Origin: Pirellulimonas nuda
Lineage (GTDB): Bacteria; Planctomycetota; Planctomycetia; Pirellulales; Lacipirellulaceae
NCBI RefSeq assembly: GCF_007750855.1
Contig: NZ_CP036291.1
Span: 6,050,905 to 6,114,904 of the forward strand
Direction: 5' to 3'
DNA length: 64,000 nucleotides
Shown: positions 1,997 to 42,609 of the stretch, piece by piece
Layout: every line of letters starts with the position of its first letter
Position numbering within the stretch: position 1 is the stretch's first letter
Position numbers and translations under genes: made by a program
Notes under the pieces: generated by a model
Databases searched by the model: none
Seen by the model: the letters and a program-made list of their open reading frames with translations, nothing else
Told to the model about the DNA's origin: nothing

Positions 1997-2995
1997 TCAA
2001 GCAGCGCCGTTGCTGCCGATGCGGTCGAGGTTCCCCTTGCGGAAGGCGTCCGCCATCGCCCGTGGGACTTCGGCCTCGGCCAGGAAGACGTGGGCGCGAT
2101 TGAGCGCCACCTCGGCCTTCATCTCTTGCTCGCGGGCCACCGCGTCTGCGCGACGCTTCTCGGCGAGCGCCTGGGCCTTGCGGGTGTCGGCCTCGGCCTG
2201 GTCCGCCTGCAGCCGGGCGCCGATGTTCTCGCCGATGTCGATGTCCGCGATGTCGATCGACACGATCTCGAACGCCGTGTGCGCGTCGAGCCCCCGCTCG
2301 AGCACCGCCTTGCTGATCCGGTCCGGGTTCTCCATCACGTTCAGGTGGTCCATCGAAGAACCGATGGCGGTGATGATCCCCTCGCCGACACGGGCGATGA
2401 TGGTGTCCTCGGTGGCGCCCCCGATGAGCTGCTTCAGGTTGGTGCGGACCGTGACCCGGGCCCGGATCTTGAGCTCGACGCCGTTCTTGGCCACGGCGCT
2501 CAGGGTCGAACGCGGCGACTTCTCCGGGTCGGGGCAGTCGATCACCTTGGGCGACACGCTGGTCCGCACCGCGTCCAACACGTCACGCCCGGCAAGGTCG
2601 ATCGCCGCGGCGCGGTCGAAGTCGAGGTCGATGTCCGCGCGGTGCGCCGAGACGATCGCCTGGATCACCCGGGGCACATTGCCGCCGGCCAGGTAGTGGG
2701 CCTCCAGCCGGCGGGTGTTGATGCCCGTGGTGGGGTCGGTCCCCACGCCCGCCTGCTGGGCCATGATCTTCGCCTCAACGATCGTGCGGGCGTGCACCTG
2801 CCGCAGGCTCATGAAGACCAGCGTGAAGGGGCTGACCGGGGCGTTGGACATGTACGCCTGCAGCCACAGCTTGCCGTAGCTGAAAACAAAGATCAGGCCG
2901 ACGACGACCAGCACCACCAACAAGAACCCGCCGGCGAGGTACAGCAAGCGGGTCATCGCCTCGGAGAGGGCGAGGGGCATCAAAGTGAGCAGCAT
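1997..2995 (-). CDS. floA: Flotillin-like protein FloA
   Basis: 332 residues, the normal length of the bacterial FloA (YqfA, UPF0365) family. A hydrophobic stretch at about residues 14-38 anchors the N-terminus in the membrane. The SPFH-like body follows with the family hallmarks, such as SFGKL-like [11 protein letters not shown], the conserved region around [10 protein letters not shown], and [18 protein letters not shown]. The C-terminus is an Ala/Glu/Arg-rich coiled coil ([20 protein letters not shown]). FloA proteins scaffold membrane microdomains and oligomerise. The gene is transcribed convergently to the upstream lipoprotein and away from the tRNA. Start ATG is at the high-coordinate end with no better upstream alternative. 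Confidence 0.93.
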
Positions 2996-3151
2996 GGCGT
3001 GAGCCTCGGGGAAGTAGCGTCGGTCCCACCATGGTAACCGCCAACGGGGCCCCCGGCCAACCAGGACGTCCGTTGCCCGCCCCCCCCATGGCGGCTATCC
3101 TCGCACCAGAGCGGCGGGAGATACCCCGCCGCTCTGGATTCTAAGCAAGCT

Positions 3152-7514: not shown

Positions 7515-9475
7515 AGGACCCCAACAGCCTTTCCGCCGAGCGGATCGACGAAGCGTGCGACGCCTACGAAGCGGCCTGGGCCTCTGGCCCGCCCCCCGAC
7601 CTGCGGCGTTTCTTGGAGCACTATGGGTGGCGCGCCGAGGCCGAGGATCAATCGCTCTGCCTCGAACTGGTCTGTATCGACCTAGAGCAGCGTTGGCGAC
7701 GGAGCCCCCCCGCCGGCGATGGGCAGACGCCCCTAACGCTATCATCTCAGACGCTATCATCCCTCACGCCATCAACCCAGACGCTATCGGCCGAGGGCTA
7801 CGCCGAGGCGCTCTTCGGCCCAGGCGCCACCCCCTTTCCGGAGTGGGTCGCCACGGAGCGCACGCTGCGCGAACGCTCCGGCGATAGCGAAGCGGGCCGG
7901 AGTCTGCGGGAGCGCTACCGAGATTCCCCAGAGATCCTCGCAGCACTCGCGGGAGAAGCCCACGCGTCGCTCGACGCACGCGAAGCGGAGACGGCGCCCC
8001 GCCAGTCGGGCGGCTCCGGCGGGGGCCTGCACGTCCGCTGCCCACACTGCCACAACCCGATCGAGCTCGTGCCCGACGCGGAGCTGGCGAGCATCCTCTG
8101 CCCCAACTGCAGCAGCGACTTCTGCCTCGTGAGCGACGCCGCGCAGTCGCACGCCGCAACCACGGTCAGCCAGATCGGCCACTTTCGGCTGATCGAGCGT
8201 CTGGGGATCGGGGCATTCGGCACGGTTTGGAAGGCGCAGGACACCAAGCTCGACCGCACCGTGGCGGTGAAGATCCCACGCAAGGGGCAGTTCGACGAGA
8301 AGCAGGAGAAGGCGTTTCTGCGAGAAGCGCAGAACGTCGCTCAGCTAAGCCACCCGAACATCGTGCCGGTCTACGAGGTCGGGCGCGACGGCGACACGCT
8401 CTACATCGTCAGCAGGCTCGTGCGTGGGCTAACGCTGGCCGACTGGCTGACGGGTCAACAGCTCAGCGCCCGCGAGGCGGCCGGGCTGTGCATGAAGATC
8501 GCCGGCGCCTTAGAACACGCGCACCAGAGGGGCGTGGTCCACCGCGACCTCAAGCTGGGCAACATCATGCTGGACGAGGTTGGCGAGCCGCACCTGATGG
8601 ACTTCGGCCTCGCCAAGCGCGAGGCGGGAGAGATCACCGTCTCGCTGCAGGGGCAGCTACTGGGCACCCCGGCCTACATGTCGCCCGAGCAGGCGCGCGG
8701 CGATTCGCACGTCGCCGACTGCCGCAGCGACGTCTACTCGCTGGGGGTGATCCTGTTTCAGTTGCTCACCGGCGAGCTCCCGTTCCGCGGCAATCAGCGG
8801 ATGCTGCTGCACCAAGTCATCCACGACGAGCCGCCGAGCCCCAGGAAGCTCAACGCCACGGTGCCCCGCGACCTGGAGACCATCACCCTCAAGTGCCTCG
8901 AGAAGGATCCAGCCAAGCGGTACCAGACGGCCGAGGGCGTGAAGCAAGAACTCGGCCGCGTTCTTAACGGCTTGCCCATCCTCGCCAAACCCGTCGGGAT
9001 GGTTGGACGCGTCACCCGTTGGCTCTCCGGAAACCCGCAGAGCGCCCGCCTCGTAGCCGGCTCGATGCTAACGATCCTTGGCGGGGGGATCAGCGTCTAC
9101 TGCATTGTCGCGATCCTCGTCATGCACACGTGCTACTCCGAGGCCGACGTGCCTAGGCGAAAGCTTACCGGAGAGGTCGCCTTCTTGCTCATGGTGTACT
9201 ACCTGCCAACATTCTTGGCGGGGCTATTAACCTTGTCTGGAAGGCGGATCGGGTTGTGGCTCGGGGCCTTCGCTACGCTGCTCGGTTTCGCAACAACCAT
9301 TGCCGTAATCGCTGGACAGGTCGACTTGATCGTTGCCTACCGCAGCACGTCCTTTGAACGCTTCCATTACGTCCTCCCGTACAGCTTCTTCACGCTGATC
9401 GGTGCACTAGTGTGCGTGCTGGGAATCGCCTCGTGGCGCCCTGTTGGGCAAGGTTGTGAGTTGAAGCTCCGGTAG
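7511..9475 (+). CDS. Membrane-bound Ser/Thr protein kinase with zinc-ribbon-like motif
   Basis: 654 residues from GTG 7511, chosen because it overlaps the sigma stop by four bases. Upstream TTG 7478 would also be in frame but reads into the sigma C-terminus. Residues 1-110 are a helical region typical of planctomycete kinases. C177-P-H-C and C197-P-N-C form a zinc-ribbon-like pair. The kinase domain runs about 221-500: glycine loop LGIGAFGTVW, catalytic Lys254 (VAVKIP), HRDLKLGN loop (Leu where Pro is usual), DFGLAK, and SPEQ. Four hydrophobic segments follow (about 515-645), so the C-terminus is membrane-embedded rather than a sensor domain. Likely phosphorylates Ser/Thr of partners, perhaps linked to the adjacent sigma factor. 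Confidence 0.9.
   Translation: MKDPNSLSAERIDEACDAYEAAWASGPPPDLRRFLEHYGWRAEAEDQSLCLELVCIDLEQRWRRSPPAGDGQTPLTLSSQTLSSLTPSTQTLSAEGYAEALFGPGATPFPEWVATERTLRERSGDSEAGRSLRERYRDSPEILAALAGEAHASLDAREAETAPRQSGGSGGGLHVRCPHCHNPIELVPDAELASILCPNCSSDFCLVSDAAQSHAATTVSQIGHFRLIERLGIGAFGTVWKAQDTKLDRTVAVKIPRKGQFDEKQEKAFLREAQNVAQLSHPNIVPVYEVGRDGDTLYIVSRLVRGLTLADWLTGQQLSAREAAGLCMKIAGALEHAHQRGVVHRDLKLGNIMLDEVGEPHLMDFGLAKREAGEITVSLQGQLLGTPAYMSPEQARGDSHVADCRSDVYSLGVILFQLLTGELPFRGNQRMLLHQVIHDEPPSPRKLNATVPRDLETITLKCLEKDPAKRYQTAEGVKQELGRVLNGLPILAKPVGMVGRVTRWLSGNPQSARLVAGSMLTILGGGISVYCIVAILVMHTCYSEADVPRRKLTGEVAFLLMVYYLPTFLAGLLTLSGRRIGLWLGAFATLLGFATTIAVIAGQVDLIVAYRSTSFERFHYVLPYSFFTLIGALVCVLGIASWRPVGQGCELKLR
7736..7790 (+). 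repeat. 15-bp tandem repeat inside the kinase gene
   Basis: About 3.7 imperfect copies of a 15-bp unit ACGCTATCATCYCAG run from 7736. They encode the Ser/Thr/Leu-rich linker at residues about 76-93 of the kinase. Because the unit is a multiple of three, copy-number change would alter linker length without breaking the frame. Confidence 0.8.
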
Positions 9476-9700
9476 AGGGGGGGCCGGAAAGGCGGCCGGA
9501 ACTTCTTGCGGGAATAAAATGGGGACAATCTGGCTCTGTAGAAGACCCGCTTCTGCTAGCGAGACGCTGTCTCCCCAGGAGTTTGGCGATGGTGTTCGCC
9601 GGCGTCGCTAGCACTCGCGGCCTTGCTTTGACCCACCGCGCGCCAACCGCTACCCTGCCGCGCTCCGCTGGCCACCGCGTGCCCCGTTCGCTCCGCCGCC
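9476..9700. other. Intergenic stretch with a REP-like half site
   Basis: About 225 bases without a gene. At about 9518-9537 the sequence AATGGGGACAATCTGGCTCT resembles half of a repetitive extragenic palindrome of the GGGGACA type, but its second arm was not found. The rest shows nothing recognisable. Confidence 0.35.
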
Positions 9701-10078
9701 ATGATCTGTCACGCCGTAGGGACCCTTCTCCAAGACCGCACCGCGGGTCGGCGGCACGCGTTGGCCGCGGTGGCGTGCGTGCAGCTCTGCGTCGCCTCCG
9801 CGGCGATTGCCGACCAGGTCGTGACTGCTTCGAATGACCCCGTCCTCCAGTTTGCTCAGTTGCACGACACGGACGCCGACGCGTCTGCCGTGTCCTCGGA
9901 GCTGCTGATCGAAGGGCTTGCCGGCCCGACGTCCTTGGCGGCCCCGCCCGGGCTCACGCTCGAAGCATTGCCCGGGTTCGCCGGACAGGGGGGCGAGGGC
10001 ACGGAGGTTCTTGCCGATCCCGACGCACCCCCGAACGAGGTTGCCTACGTCCCATACGTCCCCTTGGAGCGTGTGCTG
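9701..10078 (+). pseudogene. 5' fragment of an exported-protein gene, cut by an IS element
   Basis: From ATG 9701 the frame encodes a signal-peptide-like N-terminus (hydrophobic LAAVACVQLCVASAAIADQ, residues about 21-39) and about 85 further residues of a secreted domain without known motif. It then runs into what looks like the terminal repeat of an IS256-family element at about 10079, and the frame ends about 20 codons later at 10144 in IS sequence. No continuation of the host gene was found beyond the element remnant. It is therefore read as a truncated exported protein of unknown function. Confidence 0.5.
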
Positions 10079-10317
10079 GGCTATTGTCAAATCTCGTGTT
10101 CTCTCCCGGTCGCTAAGCGGCGTCCTGCACGATACCGTCTTTGAAGATTCGTCCTTCGATGACGAGGGTGATCTTGTCGTGGCTGCTGAGCCTTCGCCAC
10201 TTCCGGGCGGCGGACTGGGCGAGCTTGAACATCATCGCCAGGCTGGTCCGCCGGGTTCCGCTCCCCTTGGTCTTGCGATGACGGAGGCGGATGGTGGCGA
10301 ACGTGGATTCAATTGAG
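10079..10317 (-). mobile_element. Remnant of an IS256-family insertion sequence
   Basis: On the minus strand a frame ending with TAG at 10113-10115 encodes SIESTFATIRLRHRKTKGSG and onward to KWRRLSSHDKITLVIEGRIF. This is the C-terminal segment of IS256-family (mutator type) transposases, whose conserved motif is PIESTFATVRLR. Everything upstream of that motif, including the DDE residues, is missing; homology stops at about 10315, where a GGGGACATTC palindrome begins. The terminal sequence GGCTATTGTCAAATCTCG at about 10079 looks like the element's end. Not mobile on its own. Confidence 0.75.
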
Positions 10318-38108: not shown

Positions 38109-40349
38109 ATGGAACCGATCGTACCCCGCGCCCCGCGGCACAAGTTTACGGCAGTCCGCGACGGGGCGGGGGTTCCCCACGTTGAGGCCGAGGACTGGGC
38201 CGGCGCCCTCTACGCGCTCGGCTACCTGCACGGCATCGACCGGCCTACGCAGCTCTACTTCGCCCGCGCGGTGGGGAGCGGGCGGGCCGCGGAGCGGATC
38301 GCCAACCGCCCCGAGCTGCTGGAGATGGACCGCTTCCTGCGCCGCGCCGGCGTGCACCGCGGCCTGCAGCAAGAAGCAGACGAGCTGGCGCCCGCGGTGC
38401 TCGAGCAGCTCGGCTGGTACTGCGACGGCGTGAACGACGCCATCCTCGAGATCGGCCGCTCGCTGCCGATGTGGGTCACGGGGTTCACCCCTCAGCCGTG
38501 GGACGCCGAGGCGGTGCTGCTGATCGGCAACCTGCTGAGCTTCGCCGGGCTGGCCGTGGGCGAGCAAGAGAGCGAGCGGCTGCTGCTAGAGCTGATCCAA
38601 CTAGCGCCGGACGACCAGCGGCTACGCGAGCTGTTCAGCCCCTACCTAGACGGCATCGACCTCGAGCTGCTGCGCGAGATCCGCATCACCCGGCGCCTGA
38701 GCGACGACGCGCTGGAGCTGCTCACCGACCTGCCCCGCTTGGCCGGCAGCAACGCCTGGGCCGTGAGCCCTCAGCGCTCCGCCAGCGGCGCCGCGCTATT
38801 GGCGGCCGACCCCCACCTGGAGGTCAACCGCTTGCCGGCCATCTGGTACGAGGCGGTGTTGAACTGGGGCGAGGGCCGGTACGCCATGGGCGCCACCCTG
38901 CCCGGCGCGCCGCTAATGTCGGTCGGGCGGACCCCCCGGCTGTCGTGGGGGGTCACCTACCTGGTCTCGGACACCAGCGACTTCTTTATCGAAGACTGCC
39001 GACCGGGGGGAGAGTCGGGCTGGCAGTACCGCCGCGGCGCCCAGTGGTGCGACTTCAAGCTCCGCACCGAAACGTTGGGCCGCAAGGGCGCTGAGACCGA
39101 GGAGATGGCGGTGCTGGAGAACGAGGTGGGCGTGCTCATGCAGACCCCCCCGGCGAACTCCCCGGGCAAGTACCTCTCGGCCGCGTGGGTGGGCAGCCGC
39201 CCCGGGGGGGGACGATCGATCCAGACGTGGCTCGACGTGATGGCCGCGGCCGACGTGCAGGAGGCGATGCGTGCGGTGCGCGACTCGCCCCACCCGTCGC
39301 TGGTGTGGGTGTTTGCCGACCGCGACGGGCACATCGGCAAGCAGGCCAGCGGCTGGCTCCCCGACCGCGGCCCGGGCCGGTCCGGCGTGGTCCCCATCCC
39401 CGCCTGGGACGAACGCAACCACTGGCGCGGCCTGGTCCCCAGCGACCAACTGCCGGGAGAGTACGACCCCCCCATCGGCTTTGTGGCCAGCGCCAACGAA
39501 GAGGCCTACCGCACCGACGGCCCCCCGCTGCACGCCTTCAGCCTGCCCGACTACCGCAAGCGGCGTATCTGCGAACGCCTGACGGAGCTGCCCCAGGCGA
39601 CCCTCGCCGACATGCAGGCGCTGCAGTACGACGTGCTGAGCGTGCAGGCCCGCGACCTGCTGCCGGTGCTGCTGGCGGAGGTTGAGCCCGGCCCGCTGCG
39701 CGACCGGCTGGCCGCGTGGGACCTGCGGTACGACCCAGACAACGAGGGGGCGCCCCTGTTCCAGGCCTTCTACCGCGGCGTGCTGCTGGAGGTGTTCGGC
39801 CACGAGGAGGGGCTCGGCTGGCGGCGGATGCTGTACCTCAGCACGCGGGTCGGCTTCTCGCAGTTGGTGCTCACGGCCGCCGACCGGCTGCTGCGGAAGG
39901 TCACTTCGTCTTGGTGGCGCGAGGGAGAGAAGGGAGAGATGATCCGCCGGGCAGCGGCCCGCGTAGCGGTCGAGCCGCGTCAGCCGTGGCGGGCGGTCAA
40001 CAGCTTCCAGTTCACCAACCGGTTCTTCGGCGGGGGGATGACGGGCCGGCTGCTGGGGTTCGACTCGTCCAGCACCGCGATGCCGGGCTGCCACGCCACG
40101 CCGTTCCAAGGCCACCTGCTAACCACCGCCACACGCACCACCACGTTCGCCCCCAGCTACCACTTTGTCACCGACATGGGCGTCGACGAGGCCCACACCA
40201 ACCTTCCGGGGGGGCCGTGCGAGAGCGTCTTCTCCAAGTGGTACCACAGCGACGTGAAGCGCTGGACCGAAGGGAAGTACAAGTGCTTATCCCCTGCAGC
40301 GCCGGGCAAAAAGAATGGAACCACGGATAGCACGGATGACAAAGGATAG
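38109..40349 (+). CDS. Penicillin acylase family Ntn-hydrolase
   Basis: 746 residues from ATG 38109. The family is recognised from VPHVEAEDWAGALYALGYLHGIDR in the alpha part, and LAGSNAWAVSPQRSASG, where Ser214 would be the N-terminal nucleophile of the beta chain after autocleavage (GSN motif), then LLAADPHLEV and the beta-chain pattern DRDGHIGKQASGWLP. Members hydrolyse amide bonds in acylated amino acids or beta-lactams, usually in the periplasm, but no signal peptide is visible here. The last ~14 residues (GKKNGTTDSTDDKG) are encoded by an intergenic repeat rather than conserved protein. It is convergent with the Nudix gene. Substrate unknown. Confidence 0.88.
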   Translation: MEPIVPRAPRHKFTAVRDGAGVPHVEAEDWAGALYALGYLHGIDRPTQLYFARAVGSGRAAERIANRPELLEMDRFLRRAGVHRGLQQEADELAPAVLEQLGWYCDGVNDAILEIGRSLPMWVTGFTPQPWDAEAVLLIGNLLSFAGLAVGEQESERLLLELIQLAPDDQRLRELFSPYLDGIDLELLREIRITRRLSDDALELLTDLPRLAGSNAWAVSPQRSASGAALLAADPHLEVNRLPAIWYEAVLNWGEGRYAMGATLPGAPLMSVGRTPRLSWGVTYLVSDTSDFFIEDCRPGGESGWQYRRGAQWCDFKLRTETLGRKGAETEEMAVLENEVGVLMQTPPANSPGKYLSAAWVGSRPGGGRSIQTWLDVMAAADVQEAMRAVRDSPHPSLVWVFADRDGHIGKQASGWLPDRGPGRSGVVPIPAWDERNHWRGLVPSDQLPGEYDPPIGFVASANEEAYRTDGPPLHAFSLPDYRKRRICERLTELPQATLADMQALQYDVLSVQARDLLPVLLAEVEPGPLRDRLAAWDLRYDPDNEGAPLFQAFYRGVLLEVFGHEEGLGWRRMLYLSTRVGFSQLVLTAADRLLRKVTSSWWREGEKGEMIRRAAARVAVEPRQPWRAVNSFQFTNRFFGGGMTGRLLGFDSSSTAMPGCHATPFQGHLLTTATRTTTFAPSYHFVTDMGVDEAHTNLPGGPCESVFSKWYHSDVKRWTEGKYKCLSPAAPGKKNGTTDSTDDKG

Positions 40350-40876
40350 CCACGAGAAGGCACAAAAAGAAAGAAGTCGAGCGCCGGGTGCCATGCCCAC
40401 GCTCGCGTGGGCATGCGACGTACGGAAGGCAGATGCCGAGTGCGCCACTCATGCCTACGGCGCGTAGCCGTGTGCCATGGTCCATGCTTGCGTGGCCATG
40501 CGTGGCTCCAAGGGCGGCCGCCTCGGGTGATTCGCATTGCCACGCGAGCGTGACAATGGCGCCCGGCGGTGACCGACAAAGAAACGAACCACGGATAGCA
40601 CGGATACGATTGCCACAAAAAGGCACGAAAAAGCACAAAGAACAAAGGAAATGACACCCTCGCCTTAATCCGCAATGTTCGGCATATAGCCGGGTGCCAT
40701 GGTCCACGCTTGCGTGGCCATGCGTGGCTCCAAGGGCGGCCGCCTCTGGTGATTCGCATTGCCACGCGAGCGTGACAATGGCGCCCGGCTCGAGTTAGTT
40801 CCACTTAATTTTGTGCCTTCTTGTGCCTTTTCGTGGCTATCCTTCGTCATCCGTGCCAACCGTGCTATCCGTGGTT
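40318..40876. repeat. Composite inverted-repeat cluster between two convergent genes
   Basis: Left arm GGAACCACGGATAGCACGG (from about 40318) continues with GATAGCCACGAGAAGGCAC. Right arm (about 40801-40876) is its reverse complement, reading CTTCTTGTGCCTTTTCGTGG and GTGCTATCCGTGGTTCC. A second direct copy of the left arm starts near 40588. Inside are two 96-bp direct copies (40472-40567 and 40694-40789) differing at two positions, both with internal dyads such as TGCCACGCGAGCGTGACA. Both flanking genes read into the arms. Nothing in it looks like a protein gene. Confidence 0.85.
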
Positions 40877-41392
40877 CCTTCGACTTAGCGCAAGCCGCAG
40901 CAGCACGACCAGCGTCTTGGCGTCGTCGATCTCGCCGCGTTCGGCCATCGCTAGGGCTTCCGGGAACGGGACGATCAGGTTCTCGATCTGCTCGCTTGCC
41001 TCGCGGGCGTGCTGGCCCTCGGTCAGGTCGTAGGCGAAGAAGCAGTACATCCGCTCGCTGAGGATGCCCGGAGACATGAAAAACGGCGGCGCCTCCTCCA
41101 GGCGTCCGGCGCGGTAGCCGGTTTCTTCGATCAACTCCCGGGCCGCGGTCTCGATCGGCGGCTCGCCCGGCTCCAGCGTGCCGGCGGGGGCCTCGATCAG
41201 CGTCCGGCCGACGGCGATCCGGTGGTTGCGGATCAGGCAGACCCGGCCATCTTCAAACACAGGCAGAACCACCACGGCGCCGGGGTGTTCCACTACTTGG
41301 TAGGGGGTTGTCCCGCCGCCGGCGAGCGGCGCCTGGTGCTCGACCACGCGGAACCGTTTGGCTTGCAGCAGCGTCGTAGGGGGTTGGCTCAT
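40865..41392 (-). CDS. Nudix hydrolase, ADP-ribose pyrophosphatase-like
   Basis: 175 residues. The Nudix box is present: GTLEPGEPPIETAARELIEE and TGYRAG, i.e. the pattern Gx5Ex7REUxEExGU with catalytic Glu residues. The surrounding GAVVVLPVFEDGRVCLIRNHR and PGILSERMYCFFAYDL match the ADP-ribose/NDP-sugar hydrolase subgroup. Such enzymes hydrolyse nucleoside diphosphate derivatives in the cytoplasm and are Mg-dependent. The exact substrate is inferred. The last residues (RRNHG) and the TAG stop lie in the GGAACCACGGATAG repeat arm at its 3' end. Convergent with the penicillin acylase gene and divergent from the M50 protease gene. Confidence 0.93.
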   Translation of the reverse strand: MSQPPTTLLQAKRFRVVEHQAPLAGGGTTPYQVVEHPGAVVVLPVFEDGRVCLIRNHRIAVGRTLIEAPAGTLEPGEPPIETAARELIEETGYRAGRLEEAPPFFMSPGILSERMYCFFAYDLTEGQHAREASEQIENLIVPFPEALAMAERGEIDDAKTLVVLLRLALSRRNHG

Positions 41393-41598: not shown

Positions 41599-42609
41599 AT
41601 GGCTAAGGCCGACCCATACCGCTGGAGCATTGCACTAGGAACCTGGTGGGGGGTGCCGGTGCGGGCCCACCTGCTGCTGGTGCTGTTCTGCGTGCTCGCC
41701 CTCGCGATGTGCTTCGACGGCATGGCGGCCGAAGCACTGGTGTTTGTCGGCGTGCTGATGCTCAGCGTCGCGTTGCACGAAGCGGCCCACAGCATCGCAG
41801 CGATCCGCATGGGGGGCGAGGTCGACCAGATCGTCCTGTCCCCGTTCGGCGGGCTGGCGGCGCCCCGCGTGCCGGACGAACCAGAACCGCAGGTGTTTGT
41901 CGCGGTCGCGGGCCTGATCACCAACCTCGCGATGGTGGTGCTGGCGACCGCCTCGCTGGTGGCGATGCGCGAACCCATCTCTGCCCAGCTCTTTAACCCG
42001 GTCGCCCCGCAAGGGCTGCTGGAGGGTACGCTGGGCGTCGTGGCCATCAAGCTGACGCTGTGGGTCAACCTCTCGCTGCTGCTGGTCAACCTGCTGCCGG
42101 CCTACCCGTTTGATATGGGCCCCGCGTTGCGGGCCATGCTGTGGCCGATGCTCGGCAAGCGTTCCGCCGCAGAGGCCACCGGGCAGGTCGCCCGCATGGC
42201 GGCCGTGGCGCTGTTGCTGGCGGCGGTGTTCCTCAGCAAGAACGAGCCCAACGTGTTTCCGCTGTGGGCGCCGCTGGTGACGCTGGCGGTGTTCCTGTTC
42301 TTTAGCGCCCACCAAGACCTGCTGCTGGCGCGGGGTGGGCCCGCGGGCACACGCAGCGCTTCGGACGATGATTCGGACCCCATGTGGGACAACGACGACG
42401 CCGACCCGATGGTCCTGGTAGAGCACGGCGCCGAGGCCTCGCGCCACGGCGGCGAAGCCGGCGCCGACGACGAAGCCACCGAAGACGCCCGCGTAGACGA
42501 CATCCTCGCCCGCCTGCACGTGGCGGGCTACGAGGAGCTGTCTGACGAAGAACGGGCCGTGCTCGAACGGGCAAGCCGGCGGTACCGCCACCGCCGCCGC
42601 GAAGGGTAG
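41599..42609 (+). CDS. M50-family (site-2 type) membrane metalloprotease
   Basis: 336 residues from ATG 41599. Several hydrophobic segments are present. The zinc-binding HEAAHS motif near residue 55 (LHEAAHSIAAIRMGG) and the second motif NLLPAYPFDMG near residue 165 (NxxPxxPxDxG type) identify a rhomboid-independent, zinc-dependent intramembrane protease as in the SpoIVFB/S2P subgroup. The last ~100 residues are acidic and polar (DPMWDNDDADPMVLVEHGAE), probably a cytoplasmic regulatory tail. Its natural substrate is likely a membrane-tethered anti-sigma factor or regulator, which is inference. It starts 206 bp from the Nudix gene on the opposite strand. An upstream in-frame start at 41488 is less likely. 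Confidence 0.9.
   Translation: MAKADPYRWSIALGTWWGVPVRAHLLLVLFCVLALAMCFDGMAAEALVFVGVLMLSVALHEAAHSIAAIRMGGEVDQIVLSPFGGLAAPRVPDEPEPQVFVAVAGLITNLAMVVLATASLVAMREPISAQLFNPVAPQGLLEGTLGVVAIKLTLWVNLSLLLVNLLPAYPFDMGPALRAMLWPMLGKRSAAEATGQVARMAAVALLLAAVFLSKNEPNVFPLWAPLVTLAVFLFFSAHQDLLLARGGPAGTRSASDDDSDPMWDNDDADPMVLVEHGAEASRHGGEAGADDEATEDARVDDILARLHVAGYEELSDEERAVLERASRRYRHRRREG

Follow-up and report, generated by a model that had tools for sequence, protein, structure and literature searches.

Two convergent genes of Pirellulimonas nuda, one encoding a penicillin amidase-family protein and the other a Nudix hydrolase, both end inside copies of the same repeat. We consider it very likely that a dispersed element with inverted arms lies between these genes and supplies both C-terminal tails and both stop codons, and that elements of a second repeat family were inserted later. 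Within the window, by which we mean the whole 64,000-nucleotide stretch of DNA that was analyzed, the acylase gene (38109-40349, + strand, 746 aa) matches Pfam PF01804 over residues 15-725 (E 4.5e-137). Its frame runs into a repeat arm from 40317, where the codons GGA ACC ACG GAT AGC ACG GAT GAC AAA GGA TAG encode the terminal GTTDSTDDKG* (40317-40349, + strand; residues 737-746). The Nudix gene (40865-41392, - strand, 175 aa) matches PF00293 over residues 37-159, and its frame closes with AGG AAC CAC GGA TAG to give RRNHG*. The last codons of that frame, AAC CAC GGA TAG (NHG*, 40865-40876, with the TAG at 40865-40867), fall inside an inverted arm of the repeat. A sequence-only reading of this DNA had recognized both of these ends, and each frame is confirmed here, although that reading set the acylase stop 12 codons on, where we count 10 sense codons from the start of the shared 19-mer.

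The repeat cluster between the two genes spans about 570 bp, and repeat searches resolved it into two families, which we call A and B. An arm of family A is about 65 bp long, with CACGGAT units first and GGCACAAAAA units after them; a family B element is about 103 bp long and consists of two inverted hairpins. Read from the acylase side, the cluster comprises an outer forward family A arm, with CACGGAT units and then GCCACGAGAAGGCACAAAAAG (40310-40375, + strand); a divergent family B half-site with a single REP-like hairpin (40383-40418, + strand); a REPIN-like family B element with two inverted REP-like hairpins (copy 2, 40465-40567, unstranded); a second forward family A arm that is a direct repeat of the outer one (40578-40645, + strand); another REPIN-like family B element about 95-97% identical to copy 2 (copy 3, 40687-40789, unstranded); and the inverted family A arm (40810-40880, - strand). 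A 19-mer recurs without mismatch at 40317-40335 (+) and 40860-40878 (-), and a single-mismatch third copy is found at 40585-40603 (+). A chance match is excluded, as the 19-mer is expected 0.02 times per whole window and no shuffle gave three copies. The arms had previously been described as reverse complements 480 bp apart. The first part holds, exactly for the 19-mers and at 90% complementarity for the longer arms (40322-40369 and 40817-40864), while the separation is in fact 524 bp between the two exact 19-mers and 447 bp between the longer arms. The same description of the tails was otherwise sound but overlooked the second forward arm and, between the arms, two 110-bp repeats that are 95% identical (40458-40567 and 40680-40789). 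The arms are inverted relative to each other, so each gene encounters the same sequence in its own sense direction. Family A arms read NHG* in one frame and TTDSTDD in another, and often carry TGA or TAA at the outer edge.

Both families are dispersed. The host genome is one 6.62-Mb contig, and the cluster gave more than 100 BLAST matches elsewhere in it. Our survey of family A is based on stretches picked from BLAST and pattern matches and is not a complete census; within it, most family A copies form inward-facing A+...A- pairs, and the gaps that hold them lie between genes of every relative orientation, 28 between co-directional, 4 between convergent and 5 between divergent neighbors. Many of these pairs contain a further inverted unit type, AATGACCAA, and in most loci the inward pairs form terminal inverted repeats. 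Target-site duplications were found for 0/15 pairs, a weak test given the blurred edges of the element, and on this basis family A was not classed as a MITE. The possibility that the arms are terminal repeats of an IS200-like gene, or the TIR family of a TIR-associated tyrosine transposase, was rejected, with no A arms around any of the 15 Y1_Tnp matches. It seems improbable that family A is an undescribed mobile or recombining nested palindrome (CACGGAT, GGCACAAAAA and often AATGACCAA) that settles at stop codons and re-terminates genes across this planctomycete genome without target duplications or a known transposase. Of 59 genomes from the family and order, 8, the host genome among them, have a CACGGAT-triplet pattern, and the GGCACAAAAA module was found in none of 198 other sampled genomes of the phylum with two mismatches allowed. 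Along the host chromosome, family A looks sparse between about 1.81 and 4.08 Mb (G000:C1), with 3 known places against about 40 elsewhere; how far this third of the chromosome lies from the replication origin may have a part in the apparent sparseness.

The tails seen in the window recur on other genes of the host. Among 33 gene 3' ends that face a family A arm, in genes called by our own codon-usage script rather than curated, 5 have their stop codon within the arm, 20 end about 0 to 20 bp from the arm edge, 6 end at 21-60 bp and 2 are further away. An RsmE-like gene (L137), so labeled from its sequence and not from a profile search, ends ...ADGGNHG* inside an A arm, and a second conserved gene (L139) ends ...NYAEGDHG* inside another; each of these ends is absent from the 19 orthologues examined for that gene. 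Two further genes, at L142 and L148, share the ending ...DA* where GACGC(T/G)TAACCACGG meets the frame. Here GACGCTTG precedes ACCACGG at the edges of the two family A pairs and looks like an outward extension of the element, so that genes with no relation to each other end in DA* alike. Candidate genes ending in A arms at L144, L145, L154, L158 and L165 were discarded in favor of a better-scoring gene on the opposite strand. We also observed a short A-type inverted pair (L137:3293-3355) just before the likely start codon of the RsmE-like gene (L137:2570-3391). In another genus, the orthologue of the second conserved gene (L139:1441-2013) ends ...ELHESHESGIF* (L222), from CACGAATCTCACGAATC, a motif resembling the family A units, and no inverted partner of this motif was seen downstream.

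We also considered the identity of family B. Each element consists of two REP hairpins in inverted orientation, the organization of a REPIN, and family B copies bracket two genes, at 858.7 and 865.8 kb, that are RAYT-like and Y1_Tnp-like. The Y1_Tnp matches of these genes score 22.5-23.8 bits, approximately at the Pfam cut-off of 23, and an HVH motif is present in translation. Because its copies bracket the two RAYT-like genes, family B is best read as a putative REPIN of the host genome, albeit one in which the GTAG tag was not seen. Neither a conserved GTAG nor a conserved CGTC tag was found by eye in the printed family B copies, whose ends read GCCGGGTGCC, and family B was therefore not placed in the GTAG or CGTC superfamilies. 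The two RAYT-like ORFs (2350-3147 and 9457-10101 (-)) lie in one 10-kb stretch (L167:2218-12001; G000:C1:858217-868000) and are surrounded by at least six copies of family B; this stretch is a likely source locus of the REPINs. Next to it, at L167:12019-13494, an ORF begins NHQGHEEHEGQ, which looks like the product of a tandem CACGAAG unit. This suggests that CACGAAG-type units may represent a further repeat family in the host genome.

We propose a model wherein a family A element with two inward-facing inverted arms came to lie between two convergent genes, its arms landing at, or a few codons from, the original stop of each. The arm GGAACCACGGATAGCACGGATGA... is open in the acylase frame (GTTDSTDD..., with a stop 10 codons in) and provides an immediate stop in the Nudix frame (NHG*), and the outcome is a 10-residue tail on the acylase and a 3-residue tail on the Nudix hydrolase, each past the conserved protein. 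REPIN-like family B elements would then have inserted between the arms, and the addition of an extra A arm would have completed the cluster. We infer this order of events, as well as the arrival of the arms by insertion rather than by rearrangement and the mobilization of family B by RAYTs. All of the relatives we compared lie outside the genus of the host, and a search of their 80 orthologue loci gave a family A or B match in 0/80. Along with the dispersal of the family, the lack of such tails in orthologues and the presence of the same tails on unrelated genes, this supports the earlier proposal that the tails derive from an inserted repeat cluster.

The same loci speak to the history of the junction. 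The acylase and Nudix genes are adjacent in 0/80 loci in relatives, and the convergent junction is therefore lineage-specific; it could have formed by rearrangement. A rearrangement might also account for the tails, if separate A arms already stood at the 3' end of each gene and were joined by recombination between dispersed repeats, an explanation that we think unlikely. It fits with the absence of acylase-Nudix adjacency in any relative examined, whereas the other side of the Nudix gene is conserved: its divergent neighbor, a site-2/M50-type protease by the HEAAH motif in its translation (41653-42609, + strand), is kept beside it in at least 26 of 29 Nudix loci of relatives. Family A repeats are present at many genome sites, and the unpaired extra forward arm and near-identical family B copies are consistent with unequal recombination. 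However, the A+/A- pair is the usual unit elsewhere, in co-directional gaps too, making the arrival of a whole pair the simpler explanation. Partner arms are also more alike than non-partners across the family (22 pairs, permutation p 0.003), though the inner pair of the window is not.

The arms could form a long hairpin selected as a bidirectional 3' end of the convergent genes, serving as a terminator or an mRNA stabilizer, though we find this doubtful. The predicted fold is very stable, at -321 kcal/mol compared with -215 for shuffled sequences (z -14.5), but strong folding is expected of any inverted repeat. Most A arms are found no more than 20 bp from a stop codon, paired arms are alike, and REPs are similarly placed (PMC3733652), all of which would be consistent with selection on 3' ends. 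Against this, intrinsic terminators are unconvincing (1.3 sites are expected and 3 were found, all of them weak and one within the Nudix gene), copies also occur between divergent genes (5/37), an Rfam search for known RNA families returned no match, and the repeats are absent from the loci of relatives.

The sequence-only reading had taken both genes to have had their original 3' ends replaced by the cluster, and here our results differ. The PF01804 domain ends at residue 725 of 746 and the PF00293 domain at residue 159 of 175, both upstream of the repeat. In the alignment with 45 acylase orthologues, conservation runs to L727, with column occupancy decaying after it. The C-terminus of the nearest acylase orthologue, ...YKPLAPGGPGE*, aligns with ...YKCLSPAAPGKKN, just upstream of the repeat, and another of the closest orthologues stops at ...LSPDAK*, likewise aligned just upstream of the repeat. 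For the Nudix protein, the part common to 29 orthologues ends at about R171 and the repeat-derived part comprises residues 173-175. Protein lengths are ordinary (746 against an orthologue median of 739 for the acylase, 175 against 172 for the Nudix hydrolase). Because the domains and conserved C-termini precede the repeat, and because the nearest acylase orthologue stops approximately where the repeat begins, we view the tails as short add-ons. That the insertion cost one or both genes conserved 3' coding sequence is very unlikely. In favor of such a loss, the Nudix protein departs from WDRLR, a sequence common in relatives just before the position of the repeat, in the six residues that immediately precede its repeat-derived end, and some 3' sequence may have been lost there. 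Yet WDRLR is also missing from the nearest Nudix orthologue (68%), which ends LLRWAATH, and the domains of both proteins are complete and the conserved end of the acylase is intact. As read from these alignments, the repeat appears to have extended or re-terminated variable tails while conserved sequence was kept, and the added tails are probably neutral or harmless. The idea that the tails have long belonged to the proteins, matching the repeats by coincidence or gene conversion, is scarcely credible and was rejected: nothing was found in its favor, the GTTDSTDDKG tail occurs in 0/45 acylase orthologues and the NHG tail in 0/29 Nudix orthologues examined, the 19-mer is not expected by chance, and unrelated host genes have the same tails.

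With the stop and last residues of each gene in a dispersed repeat, and with orthologues that have neither tail nor repeat, both ends can be described as repeat-derived 3' ends. Comparable cases are known. REPs are small dispersed palindromic repeats that lie no more than about 20 bp from the 3' ends of genes, convergent pairs included, and their termini often give the flanking ORF its TAG stop (PMC3733652). Family A likewise lies at 3' ends and supplies stops, but is not a 20-40 bp GTAG or CGTC REP, having instead a 65-bp arm, an inverted-pair arrangement and nested sets of short units. In Erwinia, an ERIC/RU-1 fusion at the 3' end of the amidase gene ECA3499 removed the normal stop and added residues past the conserved amidase domain (PMC2759123); there the repeat is a different one (the 127 bp ERIC), a single gene is affected and the tail is longer, at 35 residues (PMC2759123). 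The QMITE1 and QMITE2 inverted-repeat elements of Coxiella lie over the 3' ends of functional genes, mutT included, with little change in protein length (PMC5896051). The full-size copies of QMITE2 differ from family A in sequence and carry direct repeats of 7-9 bp (PMC5896051); family A shows no target duplication. Family B resembles known RAYT-associated REPINs in having two REP-like hairpins in inverted orientation and in bracketing two genes for RAYT-like HUH transposases; it differs in having no conserved GTAG tag and in sitting inside a family A element. A literature search for the repeat sequence itself returned only unrelated papers, and one on planctomycete MITEs returned the REP paper and others that, by title and abstract, are not about family A. 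Repeat-supplied stops and C-termini have thus already been described for REPs, ERIC and the Coxiella MITEs, making this case an ordinary but well-documented one; the nested design of family A and its mode of movement were not found in these papers.

At one site, and for both of the genes that face it, small repeats have rewritten protein ends and left the conserved domains untouched. The same repeat family does so repeatedly within one genome, and the 33 gene ends that face its arms provide a natural test set for the neutrality of such tails. For annotators there is also a caution: identical tails on unrelated proteins, such as [N/D]HG*, are repeat-derived and do not reflect homology.
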